IMG/VR virus record: IMGVR_UViG_3300046367_000006
Location: 1-20,790 of that record
Length of the DNA stretch: 20,790 nt
Source: a virus
Strand: one strand, 5' to 3'
Shown here: positions 1,273 through 20,790 of the stretch, piece after piece
Numbering within the stretch: the stretch's first letter is position 1
Layout: every line of letters begins with the position of its first letter
Made by a program: the position numbers and the translations under genes
The notes under the pieces: model-generated
The model's input: the letters and a program-made list of their open reading frames with translations, nothing else
Told to the model about the DNA's origin: nothing
Database searches by the model: none

Positions 1273-1929
1273 ATGAAATTATCTAAAGAGACAGTTGCCC
1301 TAATTAAGAACTTTGCTGGTATCAATAGCAACCTTCTTTTGAAAGCTGGTAATCAGTTGTCCACAATCTCTGCACAAAAGAACGTCATGGCAGACGCTAC
1401 TGTGACTGAGACATTCCCTGACTTTGGTATCTACGACTTGAATGAGTTCTTGGGTGCTATGTCTTTGTTTGAAGATCCAGAGTTGACCTTTAGCGACAAG
1501 TTCGTTAAAATCGAACAAGGTGGTTCAAGCATCAAGTATTTCGCTGCAGATGCTAGCGTGTTGACTGCTCCACAAAAAGCTATCACATTCCCATCCCATG
1601 AGATTGAGTTTACTGCAACTGCTGCTATGTTGAATATGATTCATCGTACTGCTTCTGTGTTGCGTGCTTCTGATGTTTCTATCATCGGTGACGGTTCCAC
1701 AATGAGCGTTGTTGTTGGTGATAAGAAGAATACCACTGGTAACTCTTATAGCGCAAATGTTGGCACTACTGACAAGTCTTTCCGTGTGAACTTGAAAGTA
1801 GAAAACTTGAAGATGATTCCTAACGACTATACTGTTAGCATCTCAAGCAAGAAAATCTCTCGATTCAAAGCTGCAGGTGACTTGGTTTATTACGTAGCTG
1901 TTGAAGCAGATTCTTCATTTGAATTCTAA
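1273..1929 (+). CDS. 45: Sliding clamp (DNA polymerase processivity factor), T4 gp45-like
   Basis: The protein has 218 residues, against 228 for T4 gp45. The start MKLSKETVALIKNFAGINSN closely matches the T4 N-terminus, IYDLNEFLG is a conserved internal block, and the end YVAVEADSSFEF matches T4 YVVALEADSTHDF. gp45 forms a ring trimer that encircles DNA and tethers polymerase gp43, and in T4 also the late-transcription factors gp33 and gp55. GGAG precedes the ATG and a sigma-70-type promoter ends at 1238. The clamp loader subunits follow downstream, but here a halogenase gene comes between. Three proteins in this window carry a matching clamp-binding tail (see findings). Confidence 0.95.
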   Translation: MKLSKETVALIKNFAGINSNLLLKAGNQLSTISAQKNVMADATVTETFPDFGIYDLNEFLGAMSLFEDPELTFSDKFVKIEQGGSSIKYFAADASVLTAPQKAITFPSHEIEFTATAAMLNMIHRTASVLRASDVSIIGDGSTMSVVVGDKKNTTGNSYSANVGTTDKSFRVNLKVENLKMIPNDYTVSISSKKISRFKAAGDLVYYVAVEADSSFEF

Positions 1930-1959: not shown

Positions 1960-3438
1960 ATGAAGAAGATTTTGGTATTGGGTGGAGGAACAGCTGGTCT
2001 GATTTCTGCCTTAGTAATGAAAAGAACTTTCCCAGAGTATAACATTACAGTTATAGAGTCTGACTCTATCGGTATCATTGGTGTTGGTGAGGGGTCTACT
2101 GAACATTGGAAAATGTTCATGGACTACTGTGATATTAATGCCCACATGCTCGTTAGAAAAACTGATGCTGCTCTTAAGAAGGGCATTAAGTTCGAGAATT
2201 GGAATGGAGATGGTAAAAGCTATTTCCACTCTTTGGGCGATCCATTCTATTCTGAATATGGTCAAGACACTGGACACAGACTTTTGTTTATCAAATCATT
2301 GATTGCCAATGGTATTAAAACTGAAGATGTTTTGGTGGATACCAATCTTGTGACCATGCAAGGTGGTATTAATAGCACAAACCAATACCACTTCAACACA
2401 TTTAAACTAAACGAAGTTCTCCATGAGATTTGTTCTGAGCGAGGTGTGAATTTTATTCATACAACTATCTCTGACGTTTCAGTTAAAGAGAATGGTGACA
2501 TCGAATCTCTAACAGATACTGCTGGCGTTACACACGAAGCTGATTTCTTTATTGATAGTAGTGGTATGAAAAGAATCATCTCCTCCAAACTTGGAGTGAA
2601 GTGGGTTTCTTATAAAAAGTATTTGCCGATGAATCATGCATTGGCATTCCCAACTCAAGATGTTTCTGACTTGAAACCGCACACTCTGTCTCGTGCTCTT
2701 TCTTCTGGTTGGAATTGGAGAATTTCTACACAAGGGAGATATGGTAATGGGTACGTGTTCTGTGATGATTTTATTGATTCTACTAAAGCCCATGCTGAAG
2801 TTCAGACAGTATATTCAGAAGAAGTTAAAGTAGCCAAAGACATTAAGTTTGATGCAGGACGTGTAGATAAATTTTGGGTTAACAATTGCGTTTCTATCGG
2901 ATTGTCGGCTTCTTTTGTAGAACCACTAGAGGCTTCTAGTATTGGTAATTCTATTCTTCAGTCTATCGGTTTGGCTAGGATGTTTGGTTCTTGGGAGCTA
3001 GATCGTAAGATTTCAGAAAAGTATAACAGTAAATTTGTTTCTTGTTTTAATAATATCGTAGACTTCGTTCAGTTGCATTACATAACAAAACGTGATGATA
3101 CTGAATTTTGGAGAGCACTACCATCAATGATGACCAAGACAGACTTCGTACAAGAACACTTGGAAACATTTAAGAAAACATTACCAAACCAGACATATTT
3201 TATGGATGAATATAATATGTTTAATGCACCAAACTGGGCGCAGGTTATGGATGGTCTTGGTCTTTATGATAAACAATATATCACTAAGACTCTGCATACT
3301 ACATATGGAGATAAAGTTGTTCAAGAACAATTAAACAAGTATAATGAATACTTGGCTAATGTTCAACGAGGTGTTTACATTGAGCATAAAGTGTTATTGC
3401 AACAAAACAATATTGTGGTTAAATTCGACCAACAATAA
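1960..3438 (+). CDS. Flavin-dependent tryptophan halogenase-like protein
   Basis: The protein has 492 residues with AAGGA before the ATG. The N-terminus is a Rossmann FAD-binding site, GGGTAG at 8-13. The segment LKKGIKFENW places K73 where the family has its catalytic lysine (K79 in PrnA). The halogenase signature W-x-W-x-I appears as GWNWRI (250-255), although the usual following proline is a serine. EPLEASSIG (321-329) holds E324, matching the second catalytic glutamate region of PrnA (E346). The enzyme would use FADH2, O2 and halide to chlorinate or brominate an indole or similar substrate; the true substrate cannot be read from sequence. It needs a flavin reductase, and none is seen here. 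The gene is placed between the sliding clamp and clamp loader, an odd context for a metabolic enzyme. Similar genes occur in other aquatic T4-like phages. Confidence 0.9.
   Translation: MKKILVLGGGTAGLISALVMKRTFPEYNITVIESDSIGIIGVGEGSTEHWKMFMDYCDINAHMLVRKTDAALKKGIKFENWNGDGKSYFHSLGDPFYSEYGQDTGHRLLFIKSLIANGIKTEDVLVDTNLVTMQGGINSTNQYHFNTFKLNEVLHEICSERGVNFIHTTISDVSVKENGDIESLTDTAGVTHEADFFIDSSGMKRIISSKLGVKWVSYKKYLPMNHALAFPTQDVSDLKPHTLSRALSSGWNWRISTQGRYGNGYVFCDDFIDSTKAHAEVQTVYSEEVKVAKDIKFDAGRVDKFWVNNCVSIGLSASFVEPLEASSIGNSILQSIGLARMFGSWELDRKISEKYNSKFVSCFNNIVDFVQLHYITKRDDTEFWRALPSMMTKTDFVQEHLETFKKTLPNQTYFMDEYNMFNAPNWAQVMDGLGLYDKQYITKTLHTTYGDKVVQEQLNKYNEYLANVQRGVYIEHKVLLQQNNIVVKFDQQ
3317..3345 (+). promoter_or_regulatory. 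Possible internal promoter before clamp loader gene
   Basis: TTGTTC (3317-3322), a 17-bp spacer and TATAAT (3340-3345) lie inside the halogenase gene, 108 bp before the gp44 start. The -35 matches consensus only in TTG, but the spacing equals that of the other candidate promoters in the window. Confidence 0.4.
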
Positions 3439-10815: not shown

Positions 10816-11381
10816 TGTTTATGTTCGACGTTGAAACACTTGGTGTAGAATCTAATGCTGTAGTTCTGTCTGCAGCATTAGTGTATTTCGACCCAGAAGA
10901 AAAACCTTCTTACCAGAAGATGCTTGATGGGGCTTGCTTTGTTAAGTTCAAAGCAAAGGAACAAGGAGAGATGGGTCGTACTGTAACCTTGTCCACTCTT
11001 GAGTGGTGGAAGACTCAACACGAGTATGTTCGTAAGGTTTCACTCGAGCCATCTGGTTACGACTTGACTGCCGTAGAAGGTATGAACGTCCTTTACGAAT
11101 ATATGAGCAAGCACCCCACCGCACAAAAGCAAACTATGTGGGCACGTGGTTCTCTTGATCAGTTGGTGATTGATTCATTGGCTACAAAATTAGGCATGGA
11201 GCCGTTGACAGGATACGCACAGTGGCGTGACGTTCGCACTGCAGTAGATATCTTGTACGGCACATCAAATGGTTACTGTGGTGTTGATCATCCAGACTTT
11301 GAACGAGCACAAGTTATCAAACACCATCCAGTTCATGATTGCGCATACGACGCAATGATGTTAATGTACGGAAAGAACTAA
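10815..11381 (+). CDS. dexA: DEDDh 3'-5' exonuclease, DexA-like
   Basis: The protein has 188 residues. MFDVETLG (about 3-10) supplies the first D-x-E metal site of the DEDD superfamily. ARGSLDQLVIDSL (about 110-122) gives the second acidic residue. HPVHDCAYDAMMLMYG (about 171-186) gives the H-x4-D of the ExoIII motif, which makes it DEDDh. Proteins of this type (Rv2179c-like, including T4 DexA, 227 residues) degrade single-stranded DNA or RNA from the 3' end. The place directly before DNA polymerase fits a repair or nucleotide-recycling role. The start could also be the second ATG at 10821. The stop overlaps the polymerase start. Confidence 0.85.
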   Translation: MFMFDVETLGVESNAVVLSAALVYFDPEEKPSYQKMLDGACFVKFKAKEQGEMGRTVTLSTLEWWKTQHEYVRKVSLEPSGYDLTAVEGMNVLYEYMSKHPTAQKQTMWARGSLDQLVIDSLATKLGMEPLTGYAQWRDVRTAVDILYGTSNGYCGVDHPDFERAQVIKHHPVHDCAYDAMMLMYGKN

Positions 11382-13867
11382 TGGAATTTTATACATCAGC
11401 CCACGCATTCGGAGACAAGATCCTTGTGCGTGGTTACGAGAATGGTCGATCTTACAAACGTAAGATCGACTTCTCCCCAACTCTCTATGTCCCAGCAAAG
11501 AAACCCTCCAAGTGGCAAACACTGGAGGGTACGTTCGTTGATGAAGTCCAGCCTGGATCCATCAGAGAGACTCGTGACTTCATCAAACGTTACGAAGGCA
11601 TCGAAGGGTTTCCAGTCTATGGACAGACCAACTACGCCTATCAATATCTCAGCGACACTTACGATACCCTTGTTAACTGGGACATGGATCTATTCAAGAT
11701 CTTTACCATCGACATTGAGACCAAGACTGAGTCTGGATTCCCAGATATCAAAACTGCCAATGAAGAAGTGACGTTGATCACGATTAAAGATCTATTCACT
11801 AAGCGTATCATCACATTCGGTGTTGGTGCGTTCGTTCACAATCGTGACGATCTGGTTTACATCAACTGTGCAACAGAACAACAACTCCTTAAAGAGTTTA
11901 TGATTTTCTGGCAGAATAATTATCCAGATGCTGTTACAGGATGGAACACTGACTTTTTCGACGTGCCTTATTTGGTTCGTCGTATCACTCGAGAACTTGG
12001 TGACTCTTTCGCTAACAAGATCAGCCCATGGGGTTATGTTAACGAGCGTAAGACTTTCATCAAAGGTAATGAAGAGATTCACTACGACATCGTAGGTATT
12101 GCTCAGCTAGACTACCTAGAACTGTACAAGAAGTATACTTACCAAAAGCAAGAGTCTTATCGTCTTGATTACATTGCTGAACAAGAACTCGGCGACCGAA
12201 AGAAAGAAAATCCAGGCGATTCATTCAAAGACTTCTACACAAACCATTGGCAACAATTCGTTGAATATAACATTCATGACGTAGAGTTGGTTGACCGAAT
12301 GGACGACAAGATGCGTCTGCTTGAACTGCATCTAACGATGGCGTATCAAGCCAAGATCAATATGGAAGACGTTTACTCGCAGGTTCGTATGTGGGACTCT
12401 ATCATCTATAACCATCTTCGTGCCAAGGGTATCGTGATTCCAGCGAAGGCGTTCTCTGGTAAAGATGCGCAGTTCGAAGGTGCGTTCGTCAAGGATCCGC
12501 TGATTGGTCTTCACAAGTGGGTTGCTTCATTTGACTTGAACTCACTGTACCCTCACTTGATTATGCAATACAACATCTCACCAGAGACTTTGACTTCAGA
12601 GAAACTCCAAGTGTCTGTTGATAAGCTGCTCACCAAAGAAGCCGATACTAGCTACGCACACAAGCGAGATCTAACTGTAACTGCCAACGGCTGGTGCTAT
12701 CGTAAAGACATCAAAGGCTTCATGCCCGAGTTGATGGAGAAGATGTACAAAGATCGTTCCAAGTTTAAGAAGCAGATGCTTGGAGTTGAACAAGAGTATC
12801 AGAACGACAAGACAAAGGTTCATCTCCTGAAAGAGATTAGCCGACTGAACAACTTGCAGATGGCAATGAAGATTGCCCTAAACTCTGCTTACGGTGCGAT
12901 GGGTAATCAGTATTTCCGATACTTCGATATCCGTATGGCTGAAGGTATTACCACATCTGGTCAGTTGTCCATTCGTTGGATGGCTAACAAGATCAATGCT
13001 TACATGAACAAGGTCATGAAGACCGAAGGTAAAGATTACATCGTTGCCATCGACACTGACTCAATCTACCTGACTCTCGAGAATCTGGTTGAACATACTT
13101 GCTCTGGTAAGACTACCGAACAAAAGATCAAGTACATGGACAAAGTCTGTGAAGAGATTTTCCAACCGTTCATTGATACTGGTTATCAGGAATTGGCTCA
13201 GTACATGAATGCATATTCTCAGAAGATGGTTATGAAGCGAGAAGTTCTTGCCGACAAAGCTATCTGGACTGCGAAGAAGCGATACATTATGAACGTCCAT
13301 AACTCCGAAGGTGTGCAGTTTGCTAAGCCGAAGGTTAAGGTCATGGGTCTTGAGATGGTTAAGTCTTCAACCCCAGCCGTCATTCGTGATAAGCTGAAAG
13401 ACTCTATTGATGTTATCCTACTGGGTGATGAGAAAGAACTGCATAAGTATGTGACTGAGTTCAAGAAAGAATTCGATCAGATGCCTCTGGCTGATGTAGC
13501 ATTCCCTCGTGGTGTTAACGGTATGAAACAGTACGCTGGTTCTCCGATCTATTCTAAGGGTACTCCAATTCATGTTCGTGGTGCCCTGCTTTACAATCAC
13601 TACATCAAGAAGCATGGTATCGATAAGAAGTACGCTGCGATTCGAGATGGTGATAAGATTAAGTTTGTGTATGTTCGTACACCCAACCCACTACAGGAAG
13701 ACGTGATTGCGTTTAGCCAAGAACTACCAAAGGAGTTTGGATTGCATACATATATTGACTATGACAAACAATTTGAAAAGGTATTCTTGGATGCGCTACA
13801 AATTGTAATACAGCCATTGGGTTGGAAGACGCAAGAACAAAGTTCACTAGAGGACTTTTTCGGGTGA
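11381..13867 (+). CDS. 43: DNA polymerase, family B, T4 gp43-like
   Basis: The protein has 828 residues from the ATG at 11381, where MEFYTSAHAF fits the T4 start; T4 gp43 has 898. Exonuclease motifs are DIET (111-114), GWNTDFFDVPYL (187-198) and YNIHDVELV (296-304). Polymerase motif A is SFDLNSLYPHLI (383-394), motif B is KIALNSAYGAMGN (497-509), and motif C is IDTDS (557-561), with D558 and D560 as metal ligands. The C-terminus QSSLEDFFG matches the T4 clamp-binding tail (KKASLDFLFG). It replicates the phage genome with proofreading. The last seven codons, including this tail, are overlapped on the other strand by a homing endonuclease gene. The coding sequence is intact, with no intron seen. 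Confidence 0.96.
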   Translation: MEFYTSAHAFGDKILVRGYENGRSYKRKIDFSPTLYVPAKKPSKWQTLEGTFVDEVQPGSIRETRDFIKRYEGIEGFPVYGQTNYAYQYLSDTYDTLVNWDMDLFKIFTIDIETKTESGFPDIKTANEEVTLITIKDLFTKRIITFGVGAFVHNRDDLVYINCATEQQLLKEFMIFWQNNYPDAVTGWNTDFFDVPYLVRRITRELGDSFANKISPWGYVNERKTFIKGNEEIHYDIVGIAQLDYLELYKKYTYQKQESYRLDYIAEQELGDRKKENPGDSFKDFYTNHWQQFVEYNIHDVELVDRMDDKMRLLELHLTMAYQAKINMEDVYSQVRMWDSIIYNHLRAKGIVIPAKAFSGKDAQFEGAFVKDPLIGLHKWVASFDLNSLYPHLIMQYNISPETLTSEKLQVSVDKLLTKEADTSYAHKRDLTVTANGWCYRKDIKGFMPELMEKMYKDRSKFKKQMLGVEQEYQNDKTKVHLLKEISRLNNLQMAMKIALNSAYGAMGNQYFRYFDIRMAEGITTSGQLSIRWMANKINAYMNKVMKTEGKDYIVAIDTDSIYLTLENLVEHTCSGKTTEQKIKYMDKVCEEIFQPFIDTGYQELAQYMNAYSQKMVMKREVLADKAIWTAKKRYIMNVHNSEGVQFAKPKVKVMGLEMVKSSTPAVIRDKLKDSIDVILLGDEKELHKYVTEFKKEFDQMPLADVAFPRGVNGMKQYAGSPIYSKGTPIHVRGALLYNHYIKKHGIDKKYAAIRDGDKIKFVYVRTPNPLQEDVIAFSQELPKEFGLHTYIDYDKQFEKVFLDALQIVIQPLGWKTQEQSSLEDFFG

Positions 13868-14431
13868 TGTCTTGCAGTTATTGAAGTGCCATCTAAGCAT
13901 TGCGTTTAGTTTACCTTCTTTACTGCAATGTGGACATTTTGTTATAACTTGCCCTTCTTTTAGGCTTAACTCTGTTATTAGAGGAGAATCTTCTGGAAGA
14001 TAATAAGACTTTTTGCCGTCGTTATAATGTTTATGTTTTACTTTGTAACGATCTTTCATAGACTGTTTATGGGACTCGCTTTTAGGTTTTCTAAAATTAG
14101 TTTTCTTAGACTCTGGTAGTTTATATCCACCTTTGTTTTTGAACTTGTAGTCTCCATTTTGACAGTTTAGCCAGACCTCTGACTTAGCAGCATTAAGTTT
14201 AGATAAGACTTTAGTCTCCCATCTAACCGCTTCTTCTGCAGTTAAGAATGTCCTTCTTACCTGAGTTTGGAAGTTTTCTACTCCATATTTTTCGATTAGA
14301 GTATGAACTCTTTTAGATGATGTGAAGTATGAGTTCCAGAGTTGGTCTGGGTGGCAGTTTGATGAGTACCGAACACCATAGTAAACTTGGTTAGTTGGGA
14401 TACACTTAATAAGGTAGGTAAATGGTTTCAT
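13847..14431 (-). CDS. GIY-YIG homing endonuclease (free-standing)
   Basis: The only minus-strand gene encodes 194 residues. The GIY-YIG domain covers about 4-92: TYLIKC (5-10) and VYYGVRYSS (16-24) stand for the GIY and YIG elements, R21 for the catalytic arginine, and E72 in VRWETKVL for the metal-binding glutamate. A lysine-rich linker (100-145, including KSESHKQSMKDRYK, similar to NUMOD-type DNA-binding repeats) follows. A C-terminal zinc finger, C166-x2-C169-x12-H182-x3-C186, ends the protein. Such enzymes cut phage genomes lacking the gene and spread by repair. The gene is visibly richer in A/T than its neighbours, a sign of transfer. No clear ribosome site precedes the start. Its last codons overlap the polymerase gene by 21 bases. 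Confidence 0.88.
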   Translation of the reverse strand: MKPFTYLIKCIPTNQVYYGVRYSSNCHPDQLWNSYFTSSKRVHTLIEKYGVENFQTQVRRTFLTAEEAVRWETKVLSKLNAAKSEVWLNCQNGDYKFKNKGGYKLPESKKTNFRKPKSESHKQSMKDRYKVKHKHYNDGKKSYYLPEDSPLITELSLKEGQVITKCPHCSKEGKLNAMLRWHFNNCKTSPEKVL

Positions 14432-14466: not shown

Positions 14467-15003
14467 ATGAAGAACATTCGCATTATTAAAACAGGACTCA
14501 ACGTGTCAAAGATTTTGGCACAGCTGGAGAAGCATCCAGAGGACTGGGGAGTTCAAACGAGAATGGATGGAGCTAAGTCCATGCTCACTTACGGATTCCC
14601 AGTTGTCCAAGCTGGTGTGCTGCAACTTGTAATGGGTGGTATAGAAAAGGTTGGAGACTACGTTGGAGATACAGAGATTTGTATTCCAACTCCAGCTATC
14701 AAACACCACACTGAAGTTATCGGCTTTGTCAAACGACACTTTAAGAAAGTCAGTCGCTGTGGTTTTCTTTCACTCCCAGTTGGTGGTGAAGTAGGACAGC
14801 ATATTGATATTGGACAATACTACCAAACCAGAGACCGCTATCATCTGTCCATCAAAGGCAGATACATATACACAGTAGGCGATGAATCTGTTACGGTAGA
14901 ACCTGGAACCTTGCTATGGTTCAATAATAAATTACCCCATGGAACTAAGAATATTGGTGATGAGGTAAGAGTTACATTTGTGTTTGATGTTCCCCAGAAA
15001 TAA
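14467..15003 (+). CDS. Aspartyl/asparaginyl beta-hydroxylase-like 2-oxoglutarate oxygenase
   Basis: The protein has 178 residues. The double-stranded beta-helix lies in the C-terminal half: FLSLPVGGEVGQHIDIG (H and D of QHID as the first iron ligands), YHLSIKGRYIYTV, VEPGTLLWFNNKLPHG (the third iron ligand H) and VRVTFVFD (the arginine that binds 2-oxoglutarate). The order fits the AspH family (PF05118 type). The N-terminal half (1-90) may recognise the substrate, which could be a protein residue or a small molecule. Iron, O2 and 2-oxoglutarate would be needed. It sits directly after the homing endonuclease gene, with only a weak ribosome site. It is unrelated in detail to the TET/JBP-like oxygenase at 18064 and lacks its clamp-binding tail. 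Confidence 0.8.
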   Translation: MKNIRIIKTGLNVSKILAQLEKHPEDWGVQTRMDGAKSMLTYGFPVVQAGVLQLVMGGIEKVGDYVGDTEICIPTPAIKHHTEVIGFVKRHFKKVSRCGFLSLPVGGEVGQHIDIGQYYQTRDRYHLSIKGRYIYTVGDESVTVEPGTLLWFNNKLPHGTKNIGDEVRVTFVFDVPQK

Positions 15004-16700: not shown

Positions 16701-18054
16701 TGAGAATTACTGCCGAAAAGTAATTCCATTTCTTAAGCATGAGTATTTTAGCGAGAGAAAAGAGTCAGTTGTAATTAGAGAGATTTCAGAATTCTTCACG
16801 AAGTATAACAAGCCAATCACAAAAGAGATTTTGGCGATTGAAGTAAGTAACCGTACAGACCTCAACGACAAAGAACTTGGCGAGGTTGGTACATTCCTTG
16901 ACACTCTAGTTGACATTCCAACCAATGATGATTGGATGTTGGTCAACACAGAGAAGTTTTGTAAAGACAAGGCGGTGTATAATGCAATCCTTACGTCAAT
17001 CAGAATCCAAGAAGGTAGGGACAAGACTTACACCACTGACTCAATCCCTTCTATCCTTTCCGATGCTCTTGCTGTATCTTTCGACAATCATGTTGGTCAT
17101 GATTACATTGATGACGCTAATTCTCGTTATGAGTTTTATCATCGCATTGAAGAGAAAATTGCATTCGACTTGGACTTGTTCAATAAGATTACCAAAGGTG
17201 GGTTGTCAAGAAAAACTCTAAACATCGTCCTTGCTGGTACTGGTGTTGGTAAGTCTTTGTTTATGTGTCACGTTGCTGCTGGTGCTCTAAGTGCTGGTCG
17301 AAATGTTTTATACATAACAATGGAGATGGCTGAAGAACGTATCGCTGAACGTATTGATGCGAACCTCTTGAACCTAACCATGGACGAGTTGAAGGTTGTT
17401 GACAAGGATATCTACGAATCCAGACTGGCTAAGTTGGCCAAGAAGACTCAAGGTAAGTTGATCATCAAAGAATATCCAACTGCTGGTGCCCACGCTGGAC
17501 ACTTTAGAGCATTGCTCGAAGAGTTGAAATTGAAACGAGAGTTTACTCCCGACATCATTATGATTGACTATCTGAACATCTGCGCTTCACAGCGTATGAA
17601 GCAAGGTGGCTCTGTTAACTCTTATACATATATTAAGGCAATCGCTGAAGAGTTGCGTGGTCTTGCAGTTGAGTATAATGTTCCGATTCTATCGGCTACT
17701 CAGACTACTCGTTCAGGTTATACTAACAGCGATCCAGGGCTGGAAGATACCTCAGAATCTTTTGGTCTACCTGCCACTGCTGACTTTATGTTTGCGTTGG
17801 TGAGTAATGAAGAACTAGAGCAATTGAATCAGATTATCGTTAAACAACTTAAGAATCGTTACAACGATCCAGGGTTTTACAAACGATTCATCATTGGTGT
17901 TGATCGAGCAAAGATGAAACTCTACGATGTAGAAGCATCGGCTCAAGAAGGACTGGCAGATGCTGGTCACATGAAGAACGATACACCGATGTTTGATAAG
18001 AGTGATTTTGGTCAACGTGCTAAGGCTGAGAGTTTTGACGGTTGGAAATTTTAA
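16660..18054 (+). CDS. 41: Replicative DNA helicase, DnaB-like, T4 gp41-like
   Basis: The protein has 464 residues from the ATG at 16660 (T4 475), preceded by GGCGGGG. The start LEQQILSRLIYDENYCRKV matches T4 VEIILSHLIFDQAYFSKV. The frame is open further upstream, but that part only shadows the preceding gene. Walker A is AGTGVGKS (192-199), then YITMEMAEERIAERIDANLL (218-237) as in T4, Walker B IIMIDYLNIC (about 305) and SFGLPATADFMFAL (about 364). It unwinds the fork as a hexamer and works with a primase, which is not in the window. The end AESFDGWKF is not a clamp-binding tail. Confidence 0.94.
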   Translation: MRLEQQILSRLIYDENYCRKVIPFLKHEYFSERKESVVIREISEFFTKYNKPITKEILAIEVSNRTDLNDKELGEVGTFLDTLVDIPTNDDWMLVNTEKFCKDKAVYNAILTSIRIQEGRDKTYTTDSIPSILSDALAVSFDNHVGHDYIDDANSRYEFYHRIEEKIAFDLDLFNKITKGGLSRKTLNIVLAGTGVGKSLFMCHVAAGALSAGRNVLYITMEMAEERIAERIDANLLNLTMDELKVVDKDIYESRLAKLAKKTQGKLIIKEYPTAGAHAGHFRALLEELKLKREFTPDIIMIDYLNICASQRMKQGGSVNSYTYIKAIAEELRGLAVEYNVPILSATQTTRSGYTNSDPGLEDTSESFGLPATADFMFALVSNEELEQLNQIIVKQLKNRYNDPGFYKRFIIGVDRAKMKLYDVEASAQEGLADAGHMKNDTPMFDKSDFGQRAKAESFDGWKF

Positions 18055-18063
18055 GGAAAGTAA

Positions 18064-19392
18064 ATGACTAAAATATTAGTAGCACCAATCAAGCATGATT
18101 GTTCTCATATGCAAGGACAATTCCCTACAGAAAAAGATTATGATCTTCTTATTGAAGAAGACATGGATGTTTATATGCCAGAAATTCCAGGTCACCCTGA
18201 GATGACTGGAACTGAAGAAAGAATTATCCTAAAGTTCCGTAAGAACTACTTCACTAAAGAACAGCAAGACCAAGCGTATGCTGGGCTTCGTGAAGCTGCA
18301 GTAGAAACACAGAACCGTGGCATGGCTGCTGGTCCACGTAATGAGAAGTTGGGTAATCGTGAATGGGTCACTGAGTATGAGTCAGACATTATTGAATACT
18401 TTTCAAATCCAGGTGCCAATCTATATGGAGACGATCCAGTAGAAGATATTCGTGAGAGCCACAAGGGTAAGAAAGATACCGCTTCTACACGTAACAACGT
18501 CTGGGGTATTCAGGCGGTAAAGAAGGATAACTTTGACTTTGAAACATGGGTAGATGCTACTAAGAACTTGTCAGACGACGACAAGAAGAAAGAAGTTGAT
18601 CGTGTTGTTAAGAAGTATGTCTGCTCTACTACTTACGCCAATGGTGTTATGTCTGGTATCGCTGGTTGGTTCGATCGTTACCCACGCATCCCTTATGGTC
18701 GTGCAACATCGTACACTCAACGTGAACCTGAAAAGTTTGCCATGGCGTTTCCATTCCTTCAATCTCTTGCCAAGGGTTTCAAGGACTTGTCGCCAAAACG
18801 ATTCACTGCACAAATGGAATCTGCAAGTAAAGTTGATAGTGGCTTTTTAATTCCAGGGACTCCATTCACTACTGTTACAGTAAACAAGACATTCCGCACA
18901 GCATGTCACTTTGACGCTGGTGATTTGACATCTGGTTTGAGTAACTTGCTTGTATTGTCCAACAATGGTAACTACTCTGGTTGTTATCTTGTGGCTCCTG
19001 AGTATCGTGTTGCAGTGAACGTGCGTCCAGGTGATCTCTTGTTGATTAATAATCACGAAGTTATGCACGGTAATACTGAAATCAAATTGCTTGATGAAGA
19101 AGCAGAACGTGTTTCACTTGTTTGCTATTTCCGTGAGAAGATGCTTGAGCTTGGTTCTAAGCAATATGAAGACTGCCGATATGAGTATGTTGAGTCTCGT
19201 CGTTTGGACAAAGAACATCCAGGCCATAAGAATGAAGATGGCTCTGCCCGTCACTTGTGGAATGGTGTGAGTCAAGGTATGTGGGAAGACAAAGAGTGGT
19301 ATAACTACTTGGAATCTAAACTTGGTGTAGAAACTCTGCACAAGTACCACCCACTGTCTGTTGAATCAAATTCACTTGAAGGCTTTTTCTAA
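18064..19392 (+). CDS. TET/JBP-like 2-oxoglutarate/Fe(II) dioxygenase with clamp-binding tail
   Basis: The protein has 442 residues with AAGGAAAG upstream. WFDRYPRIPYGRATSYTQ (202-219) and FTTVTVNKTFRTACHFDAGD (268-287) lead into the iron site H282-x-D284. GLSNLLVLSNNGNYSGCYLV, then APEYRVAVNVRPGDLLLINN and HEVMHGN give the distal ligand H335, and ERVSLVCYFR gives the 2-oxoglutarate arginine (R349). This order and the P-E-Y/PGD/HGN pattern are those of TET/JBP-type base dioxygenases, which oxidise 5-methylcytosine or thymine in DNA. The base used here cannot be read; no cytosine methyltransferase is in the window. The C-terminus NSLEGFF resembles the polymerase tail SSLEDFFG, so it may bind the gp45 ring. 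The amidotransferase and GNAT genes follow with overlaps. Confidence 0.82.
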   Translation: MTKILVAPIKHDCSHMQGQFPTEKDYDLLIEEDMDVYMPEIPGHPEMTGTEERIILKFRKNYFTKEQQDQAYAGLREAAVETQNRGMAAGPRNEKLGNREWVTEYESDIIEYFSNPGANLYGDDPVEDIRESHKGKKDTASTRNNVWGIQAVKKDNFDFETWVDATKNLSDDDKKKEVDRVVKKYVCSTTYANGVMSGIAGWFDRYPRIPYGRATSYTQREPEKFAMAFPFLQSLAKGFKDLSPKRFTAQMESASKVDSGFLIPGTPFTTVTVNKTFRTACHFDAGDLTSGLSNLLVLSNNGNYSGCYLVAPEYRVAVNVRPGDLLLINNHEVMHGNTEIKLLDEEAERVSLVCYFREKMLELGSKQYEDCRYEYVESRRLDKEHPGHKNEDGSARHLWNGVSQGMWEDKEWYNYLESKLGVETLHKYHPLSVESNSLEGFF

Positions 19393-20078
19393 TGTGTGCA
19401 GTTATCGGTGCTGTGATTAAAAAACCCACAGCAACTGACTTTGATATGATTAGAAGTGTATTCCACGAGTCTCGTATTCGTGGTTTACATGCGACTGGAT
19501 TGTCCTACCTCAGGGGTGGCGTAATCCATACCTTTAAAGAACCTGTCCCAGCGGATGAGTTCAGAAAACTAGATGATTTGGAGGATATGGTTGATGACGA
19601 TGGTACTCTTTACCTTATTGGTCACTGTAGATATAGCACTAGCGATTTATTGTATAACCAGCCGATAGCAAATGCAACCACGTCAATTGTCCATAATGGT
19701 GTTATTACTCAGCACGATCCTGCTGATTGGGAAGTCTTGCACGGATATGCATGCGAAGGTAAGAACGACACCGAACTCTTACTCCGCTCATTGGAGCATT
19801 ACAGCCCACTAGAACATTGGAAAGATGCAAGCCTTGCAGTGTGCGAACTCCGAACTGATAGAACCATCCGTGCGTATCGCAACGGTAAGCGTCCATTATA
19901 CTTGACAGTTTTGGATAATGGGTGTATAATTACTTCTACGGCTAACGTTGCAAAACGTGCCAATTTAAACTATACAACTGTGCCGCTGTCTATGAACATC
20001 TATCATACTATCGATGAACACTTGTCTCATCTTTTAGAGAAAGTAGATATTCAAGGTGCAGTGGACTATCAATTATGA
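19392..20078 (+). CDS. Stand-alone class II glutamine amidotransferase
   Basis: The protein has 228 residues, and its start shares a base with the preceding stop. C2 in MCAVIG is the N-terminal nucleophile of Ntn-type amidotransferases (PurF, GlmS and AsnB N-domains). Supporting motifs are RGLHATG (30-36), GHCRYST (77-83), NQP (89-91), VHNGVI (100-105) and NDTE (125-128). The enzyme would release ammonia from glutamine, but the usual fused acceptor domain (isomerase, synthetase or transferase) is missing. The acceptor enzyme must therefore be a separate protein, possibly one encoded next to it. A perfect sigma-70 promoter lies inside the gene at 19902-19930. The gene lies between two genes whose products have clamp-binding tails. 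Confidence 0.88.
   Translation: MCAVIGAVIKKPTATDFDMIRSVFHESRIRGLHATGLSYLRGGVIHTFKEPVPADEFRKLDDLEDMVDDDGTLYLIGHCRYSTSDLLYNQPIANATTSIVHNGVITQHDPADWEVLHGYACEGKNDTELLLRSLEHYSPLEHWKDASLAVCELRTDRTIRAYRNGKRPLYLTVLDNGCIITSTANVAKRANLNYTTVPLSMNIYHTIDEHLSHLLEKVDIQGAVDYQL
19902..19930 (+). promoter_or_regulatory. Perfect-consensus sigma-70 promoter inside amidotransferase gene
   Basis: TTGACA (19902-19907), exactly 17 bp, then TATAAT (19925-19930). It lies 145 bp before the GNAT-like gene at 20075 and could drive that gene and those that follow beyond the window. Confidence 0.7.
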
Positions 20079-20716
20079 TTCTTGTAAACTCAACCAAAGT
20101 ACAACAACTTATCGAAAGCAGTCCAGCTGGTAAGAACACCAAGTTCTTATCGGCTGCACACTCATTGTGGACTCGTTTCCATAACTACGATAAGTCTCTG
20201 CCGATGGCTTATGAAGTCAACGGTGAAGTTGTTTCTTTAATCTTTGCTACATTTAATCGGGATGGATATGCCAACCTCTACGAAATCGTCACACTCGAAG
20301 GTCAAGAAGGTAAAGGATATGCGTCCAAGTGCTGGGATGCGTGGATCAAATATGCAGTCGAAGAACGAAAAGTCCAACGACTTAAAATCTCTTGTACCCC
20401 ATCCTCTGTCAGCTGGCACAATCGCAATGGGCTGGTCTTTTGGGCAGTTGATCCCACTGGTTCACTCCGCTCAGACCAACCACTATTCCCTACACGTGCC
20501 GAACAAATTGCGTACAGAGACAACGCCATTGTAAACCCACTTCAAGCATTACCACCAGCAAAGGCTCGTGCGCAATTCCTTGCTGAAGGTTTAGAATCTT
20601 ACACATGGGGTGAGAAGAAGAAAGCCAAGACACAGACTGCTATTGATACTGTTGGTAAGTCTTGGTTGCGTGCAGCGCTAATGGATCAACCATCACTTGA
20701 AGACTTTTTGAAATAA
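20075..20716 (+). CDS. GNAT-like protein with clamp-binding tail
   Basis: The protein has 213 residues; the ATG overlaps the amidotransferase stop. The fold is suggested by MAYEVNGEVVSLIFATFNRD (44-63), YEIVTLEGQEGKGYASKCWDAW (69-90), where GKGYA is the acyl-CoA loop (the usual Q/R at its first position is E78), and helix YAVEERKVQRLKISC. A long extra part (115-200) follows, including GLVFWAVDPTGSLRSDQ and NPLQALPPAKARAQFL, which does not look like a standard acetyltransferase. The C-terminus DQPSLEDFLK matches the polymerase clamp-binding tail. A role in modifying DNA bases or amino groups added to bases is an inference from the tail and neighbours. The Mom protein of phage Mu is a GNAT-type DNA modifier, but I see no specific likeness. 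Confidence 0.75.
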   Translation: MILVNSTKVQQLIESSPAGKNTKFLSAAHSLWTRFHNYDKSLPMAYEVNGEVVSLIFATFNRDGYANLYEIVTLEGQEGKGYASKCWDAWIKYAVEERKVQRLKISCTPSSVSWHNRNGLVFWAVDPTGSLRSDQPLFPTRAEQIAYRDNAIVNPLQALPPAKARAQFLAEGLESYTWGEKKKAKTQTAIDTVGKSWLRAALMDQPSLEDFLK

Positions 20717-20790
20717 TGGATTATCGTTTAAAAGAAAACCGACGTGAGGCATTCATCCGTTGGTATGCTTGGTCGTTGAAGTGTGATGAT
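20716..20790 (+). CDS. N-terminal part of an unknown phage protein (partial)
   Basis: The ATG shares its A with the preceding TAA, and the frame stays open for 25 codons to the window end: MDYRLKENRREAFIRWYAWS and five more. The R-R-E-A-F-I-R-W-Y pattern reminds me of phage proteins annotated as alpha-glutamyl/putrescinyl thymine pyrophosphorylase-type enzymes, which act in thymine hypermodification. With only 25 residues this is a weak recollection and is given as a lead, not a call. Confidence 0.5.
   Translation, partial: MDYRLKENRREAFIRWYAWSLKCDD

Follow-up and report, generated by a model that had tools for sequence, protein, structure and literature searches.

Results

A TET/JBP oxygenase and a GNAT protein end like the DNA polymerase

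A 20,790-nucleotide stretch of viral DNA (IMG/VR record IMGVR_UViG_3300046367_000006, positions 1 to 20,790; the window) encodes a TET/JBP-type oxygenase and a GNAT acetyltransferase whose C-terminal peptides resemble that of the window's own DNA polymerase. These peptides are predicted to be clamp-binding motifs of the T4 gp43/gp55/gp33 type, and we assign a probability of about 0.8 to the reading that they tether two steps of thymidine hypermodification to the gp45 sliding clamp. The polymerase ends SSLEDFFG, the TET/JBP protein NSLEGFF and the GNAT protein PSLEDFLK, exactly as the original prediction made from this DNA had it. That prediction had also named proteins of the window that lack the tail, and their C-termini bear this out: ligase (SSKDIK), UvsX (LEELEFDE), exonuclease (MLMYGKN), AspH-type oxygenase (FVFDVPQK), first GNAT (YWRRNNT) and gp41. 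The gp41 helicase end, SFDGWKF (18031-18051), is a nearly invariant C-terminal signature of its own in relatives (SF[ED]G[FW]KF) and is distinct from the polymerase tail. T4 DNA ligase also carries a gp45-binding-type tail.

The predicted likeness to T4 tails was confirmed. T4 gp43 ends KASLDFLFG and gp55 ends PSLDFLYEAND, and the window tail fits the T4 consensus position by position (SLEDFFG versus SLDFLFG). The shared features are the extreme C-terminal location, the hydrophobic and acidic pattern S-L-[ED]-x-[FL]-[FLY], the divergent preceding linker and the match to the polymerase's own tail. The difference lies in the carriers, which in the known cases are the polymerase and late-transcription factors rather than modification enzymes. 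In T4, gp43, gp55 and gp33 all bind gp45 through C-termini that can replace one another, and the gp55 clamp epitope consists of a divergent linker and a motif that can be swapped with that of gp43 (PMC2988020). The window encodes a gp45 with full-length matches to T4 gp45 (1CZD, 1e-24) and RB69 gp45 (1B77). From this precedent and the presence of the clamp we infer that the window tails bind gp45.

The tails are conserved in relatives that encode gp45

An IMG/VR search yielded 80 loci each for the TET and GNAT genes. Every near relative with a closed TET reading frame kept the tail, except one truncated frame, so the loss in close relatives that would have spoken against the original prediction was not seen. 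The L-E-x-F-F positions of 80 distinct aligned TET proteins have column entropies of 0.1-0.2 bits versus a protein mean of 0.74, and the linker directly before the tail is variable (1.3-2.8 bits). All 73 distinct GNAT proteins end L-x-x-F-L within the pattern P-S-L-E-x-F-L, with S and E each changed in one sequence; the residues preceding their tail are more conserved than the TET linker. Codons at the fixed tail positions vary synonymously (several Leu codons, GAA/GAG, TTT/TTC), which indicates that the tail amino acids are under selection. Composition alone predicts 0.008 occurrences of the strict tail pattern per ~270 genes, and only a few of the ~240-290 genes of each related genome have polymerase-like ends apart from those for the polymerase itself, TET and GNAT. 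Chance or misreading of the tails was rejected from this conservation and the rank tests below.

More distant TET proteins (41-46% identity) are tailed as well, ending ATLGDFFV in DLP6 and SLEEFFV in C48C1. A blastn search of the locus against INPHARED phages gave no match, and INPHARED contained no relative of the GNAT protein. The gp45 family (phrog_223) is present in every tailed genome tested. It was not found in Pelagibacter phage HTVC112P or Nonlabens phage P12024L, and the short TET proteins of both lack the tail. In P12024L, a TET-adjacent glycosyltransferase ends NQLEIF and a methyltransferase SQQTLF (L201:3589-4984), resembling bacterial β-clamp motifs (QL[SD]LF); this is perhaps the same strategy via the host clamp.

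Modification enzymes of other phages carry the tail of their own polymerase

The strongest evidence is that modification enzymes share the tail of their own polymerase even where the tail sequence differs. The polymerase of Vibrio phage D506 has an end unlike that of T4, KKARKLW. Two 5-hydroxymethyldeoxyuridine kinase-family proteins of this phage, the HMUD2 kinase (PF18747) and the HMUDK_hel protein (PF18723), end AKTKKLW and KSTKRLW, and its amino acid:DNA transferase (ADDT) ends VKTRKLW. Among its 916 open reading frames (ORFs) of ≥40 residues, [KR]LW ends occur only in these four proteins and one 99-residue protein. Salmonella phage Vi01 has a known hypermodified base; its polymerase ends VNLLSMMGKKG, its HMUD2 kinase ends VSLLGLMRKA and its ADDT ends VNLMSLLKR. 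Matching of this kind was also seen in four other Ackermannviridae, whose kinase tails include SLLDLMKKG. We know of no description of clamp tails in ViI-type hypermodification. Cygsa01 has the ends SVMDFFS (polymerase), NVFDLF (kinase), SVLDLF (HMUDK) and DLMGFFQ (ADDT). A polymerase ending TLEDFFG is accompanied in Melnitz by Mom (PF25680, 7.4e-49; TLEGFF) and TET (NLNDFLGE), and in C48C1 by Dam (PF02086; TLDAFFG) and the TET protein given above. The polymerase of DLP6 ends TLDSFFA and its TET TLGDFFV. In Cr30, the polymerase end DLSSLFD is matched by a glycosyltransferase-like protein (DLSKLF). Mom, Dam and the glycosyltransferase-like protein were found through their tails.

In each genome, every gene was given a rank for how closely its C-terminus resembles the tail of the polymerase encoded there. 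Modification genes fell in the top 2% in 17 of 30 cases. With the window's lineage and the tail-found Dam, Mom and glycosyltransferase genes removed, 8 of 15 remained there (P = 1.5e-10), and with the corrected Cygsa01 polymerase frame 11 of 16 (P = 8e-16); independence is only approximate in these P values, and the genomes were chosen as relatives.

Other proteins in these genomes end similarly. A small Cys-rich family (phrog_4789) ends like the lineage polymerase in Vi01 (L197:30355-30567, VNLLSLMRK) and D506 (L223:17591-17890, KTKRLW) and may represent a minor client of the clamp, for example a transcription factor. A 103-residue Cygsa01 ORF (W08 109399-109710) ends NSLLDFF. Beside the Melnitz-3 polymerase, a C5-methylase (HhaI type, as annotated), TET, a 427-residue protein and a P-loop kinase lie in a row (L199:4010-8090), a possible cytosine hypermodification operon. 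Public annotations of these genes are misleading: TET appears as 'SNF2 DNA repair protein', HMUD2 kinases as 'guanylate kinase' or 'homing endonuclease', and P-loop kinases of the window-lineage type as 'terminase small subunit' (phrog_800).

The tailed genes belong to a probable thymidine hypermodification operon

Beyond the window, the locus continues in an identical contig of 73 kb (G001). Its operon consists of TET, a glutamine amidotransferase, GNAT, ADDT, a radical S-adenosylmethionine (SAM) enzyme, a 156-residue protein and a P-loop kinase (PF18751). ADDT (PF18724) occurs in all 6 related contigs. The P-loop kinase was recognized by profile in 5 of these and from its sequence in the remaining one. 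Relatives G002, G003 and G004 have no radical SAM gene. The window-lineage kinase does not belong to the HMUD2 or HMUDK_hel families present in Vi01, D506 and Cygsa01. The TET and GNAT genes therefore belong to a predicted thymidine-hypermodification operon, and the earlier description of both enzymes as having unknown substrates no longer holds.

A profile search of G001-G006 found no pyrimidine hydroxymethylase (PF00303), the family expected of a dUMP hydroxymethylase, and the window's lineage gave no match to a C5-methylase profile; G001 encodes a ThyX. PF00303 is present in the kinase/ADDT phages that have no known TET (Vi01, D506, Cygsa01) and missing from DLP6, C48C1 and Melnitz, which have TET; in Cr30, TET and PF00303 occur together. 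Given ADDT and the kinase in the operon and the lack of both enzyme families, these gene contents suggest that TET most likely replaces the missing hydroxymethylase as the source of 5-hydroxymethyluracil (5hmU), made in DNA. H282, D284, H335 and R349 of the TET protein are invariant, corresponding to the HxD...H motif and the 2-oxoglutarate (2OG)-binding Arg of the double-stranded β-helix domain.

The third enzyme with a possible tail is ADDT, whose gene starts at 20716 and is cut by the window end. The contig identical to the window carries the full gene (L195: 9228-10247, minus strand), whose product ends ASGLDAFL, with the GLxxF pattern kept in 63 distinct homologues. The original reading of two enzymes tethered to the clamp was right in direction, since clamp tethering is the best explanation of the tails. 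It was too narrow, because ADDT may be a third client and tailing recurs in unrelated lineages with other tail sequences.

Alternative explanations of the tails

Several observations count against tethering. Kinase, radical SAM enzyme and glutamine amidotransferase have no tail, which means that tethering is not needed at every step. The window-lineage kinase scores 29.4 bits against PF18751, barely over the cut-off of 27. Neither the Cr30 TET and ADDT nor the S-CBWM1 TET has a tail, although Cr30 encodes gp45. The window-lineage ADDT ranks only 14-25 of about 240-290 genes by similarity to the polymerase tail, which makes its GLxxF end the weaker case despite its conservation. In several of these phages the T4-type baseplate hub proteins (PF12322; L138:17287-18006 and homologues) have the ends GMQSFF, GMENFFV or GIDDFF. 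The motif by itself therefore lacks specificity, and we regard these ends as false positives. Such a short motif, the baseplate ends and the moderate similarity of the ADDT tail are what would be expected if the C-terminal residues were ordinary structural parts that resemble the polymerase by convergence or chance. This is highly improbable and strongly disfavored by the rank tests, by the variable TET linker and by the presence of the tail on unrelated folds (TET, GNAT, ADDT, kinase, Dam, Mom, glycosyltransferase), where it shifts with the polymerase from lineage to lineage. The tails might instead bind another replisome partner of the polymerase, such as the clamp loader, single-stranded DNA-binding protein or helicase. 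The evidence here consists of similarity to the polymerase tail, and the D506 tail is basic and ends LW, unlike the classical hydrophobic-acidic gp45 motif. The gp45 binding of the interchangeable T4 C-termini, the positional fit of the window tail to that consensus and the occurrence of gp45 in all tailed genomes tested make a different partner very unlikely.

Two further alternatives concern the purpose of the tails and the substrate of TET. Tails might load enzymes onto late-transcription clamps or compete with the polymerase for the clamp. T4 late transcription uses the same gp45 site via gp55 and gp33, and in T4 the binding of α-glucosyltransferase (α-GT) to gp45 is not the main determinant of its share of glucosylation, its dominance coming mostly from expression (a 2026 paper, PMC13216743), a result that also weighs against tethering. 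This purpose is unlikely. The tails sit on DNA-modifying enzymes whose genes share operons with further modification genes, and on this basis reaching the DNA is the simplest role for the tails. TET might also oxidize 5-methylcytosine (5mC), as proposed for other phage TET proteins, and stand outside the thymidine pathway; the tailed Melnitz TET does adjoin an HhaI-type C5-methylase. We consider this quite unlikely for the window: its relatives lack C5-methylase profiles and PF00303, and ADDT and the P-loop kinase follow TET. A 5mC pathway in the window's lineage was disfavored on these grounds. Clamp tethering of a thymidine pathway is the reading that we retain.

Features of the window

The coordinates of the clamp, the tailed genes and their neighbors are collected in Table 1. 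The TTG at 11339 is the mechanical start of the polymerase ORF, and a start at about 11381 (MEFYTS) is likelier, as in relatives. A weak GIY-YIG/SegE-type homing endonuclease ORF (13847-14431, minus strand) overlaps the polymerase-tail codons (13841-13867) with its 3' end on the opposite strand. The glutamine amidotransferase gene between TET and GNAT had not been part of the original prediction, and its product has no clamp-type tail. AlphaFold gave an unusable TET model (mean predicted local distance difference test score [pLDDT] 43.5) and a moderate GNAT model (66). The motif-A region of the GNAT protein keeps GxxGxG without the usual Arg/Gln. Assignment of this protein as Mom was rejected; it has no Mom match and generic N-acetyltransferase matches instead. 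An AspH/cupin-type 2OG oxygenase (14467-15003; phrog_32420, 6e-69) adjoins the polymerase and is kept in relatives. A full-length FAD-dependent tryptophan halogenase (1960-3438; PF04820, 5e-99) lies between the gp45 and clamp-loader genes of this T4-like phage.

Table 1. Clamp, polymerase and modification genes of the window with their C-terminal tails.
Feature	Position	Strand	Support
gp45-type sliding clamp, presumed docking partner	1273..1929	+	Pfam gp45-slide_C 3.9e-9; phrog_223 3.7e-71
Family-B DNA polymerase of gp43 type, provides the reference tail	11339..13867	+	
Polymerase C-terminal tail SSLEDFFG, predicted clamp-binding type (ORF end EEQSSLEDFFG)	13841..13864	+	
TET/JBP 2OG-Fe(II) oxygenase, predicted thymine (to 5hmU) hydroxylase on DNA	18064..19392	+	PF12851 2.6e-25; phrog_24024 1e-153
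TET/JBP C-terminal tail NSLEGFF (end ESNSLEGFF), after variable linker	19369..19389	+	
Class-II glutamine amidotransferase (GlmS-N/GATase_6 type), in operon	19392..20078	+	PF13522 9e-10; phrog_4736 2.4e-12
GNAT acetyltransferase, predicted to tailor the appended group	20075..20716	+	PF00583 5.7e-6 (over cut-off); Foldseek spermidine/Ard1 N-acetyltransferases, E about 1e-5
GNAT C-terminal tail PSLEDFLK (end DQPSLEDFLK), predicted disordered	20690..20713	+	pLDDT 31 in last block
ADDT gene, 5' end, cut by window end	20716..20790	+	PF18724 8.6e-21

Discussion

We infer the following order of events from the operon and the tails. The gp43 polymerase and gp45 would copy DNA with ordinary dTTP. TET carried on clamps behind the fork would convert thymine to 5hmU in DNA, and the operon P-loop kinase would activate the hydroxyl. 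ADDT, possibly tethered through its GLxxF tail, would swap the phosphate for an amino acid, and the radical SAM enzyme, where present, and the clamp-tethered GNAT protein would tailor the adduct. Tethering would concentrate the enzymes locally and let them scan new DNA in one dimension, and we propose that the DNA would in this way be modified before host nucleases arrive.

In phages ViI, M6 and phiW-14, 5-hydroxymethyldeoxyuridine (5hmdU) is made as a nucleotide, and Lee et al. reportedly described the hypermodification pathway in 2018 and 2022. A DNA kinase phosphorylates the 5hmdU, after which transferases modify it further (PMC6449724). Enzyme classes that the window's lineage shares with these phages are ADDT (PF18724), radical SAM enzyme, acetyltransferase and a putative P-loop kinase, and Vi01's own kinase and ADDT carry the tail of the Vi01 polymerase. 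It differs in having no pyrimidine hydroxymethylase found and a TET/JBP protein predicted to make 5hmU in DNA.

The original prediction knew of no clamp-tethered base modification in T4-like phages, a view corrected by T4 α-GT, which binds gp45 (Sommer 2004, confirmed in PMC13216743). Like the proteins proposed here, α-GT is a phage base-modification enzyme that binds the clamp; it differs in being a single enzyme and in its C-terminus (FKEQFDIITK), which is not a polymerase-type tail. Eukaryotic DNMT1 is likewise a modifying enzyme brought to new DNA by a peptide that binds the PCNA clamp, with a different clamp, peptide, chemistry and purpose (PMC9690074). Our literature search, which reached few subscription papers, found no published description of such tails on ADDT, 5hmdU kinase, TET, Mom or Dam. 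What is new is the recurrence of a lineage-matched, predicted clamp tail on DNA-modification enzymes of several chemistries.

Clamp tethering of modification enzymes is probably a general principle in gp45-encoding phages, in which at least seven lineages would have independently acquired their own polymerase's tail on TET, 5hmdU kinase, ADDT, Mom, Dam, GNAT or glycosyltransferase. Hypermodification would then be a replisome-coupled assembly line, and TET of the window's lineage would supply 5hmU in place in new DNA. Beyond T4 α-GT, a recruitment mechanism for modifying up to whole phage genomes fast enough against restriction has been lacking. The lineage-specific shared tail is a testable mechanism for several chemistries, including that of the studied phage ViI, and unknown modification enzymes can be sought among the proteins of a phage whose C-termini match that of its polymerase. 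The polymerase-like tails on modification enzymes in at least seven phage lineages suggest that DNA modification in these phages takes place directly from the replication machinery.

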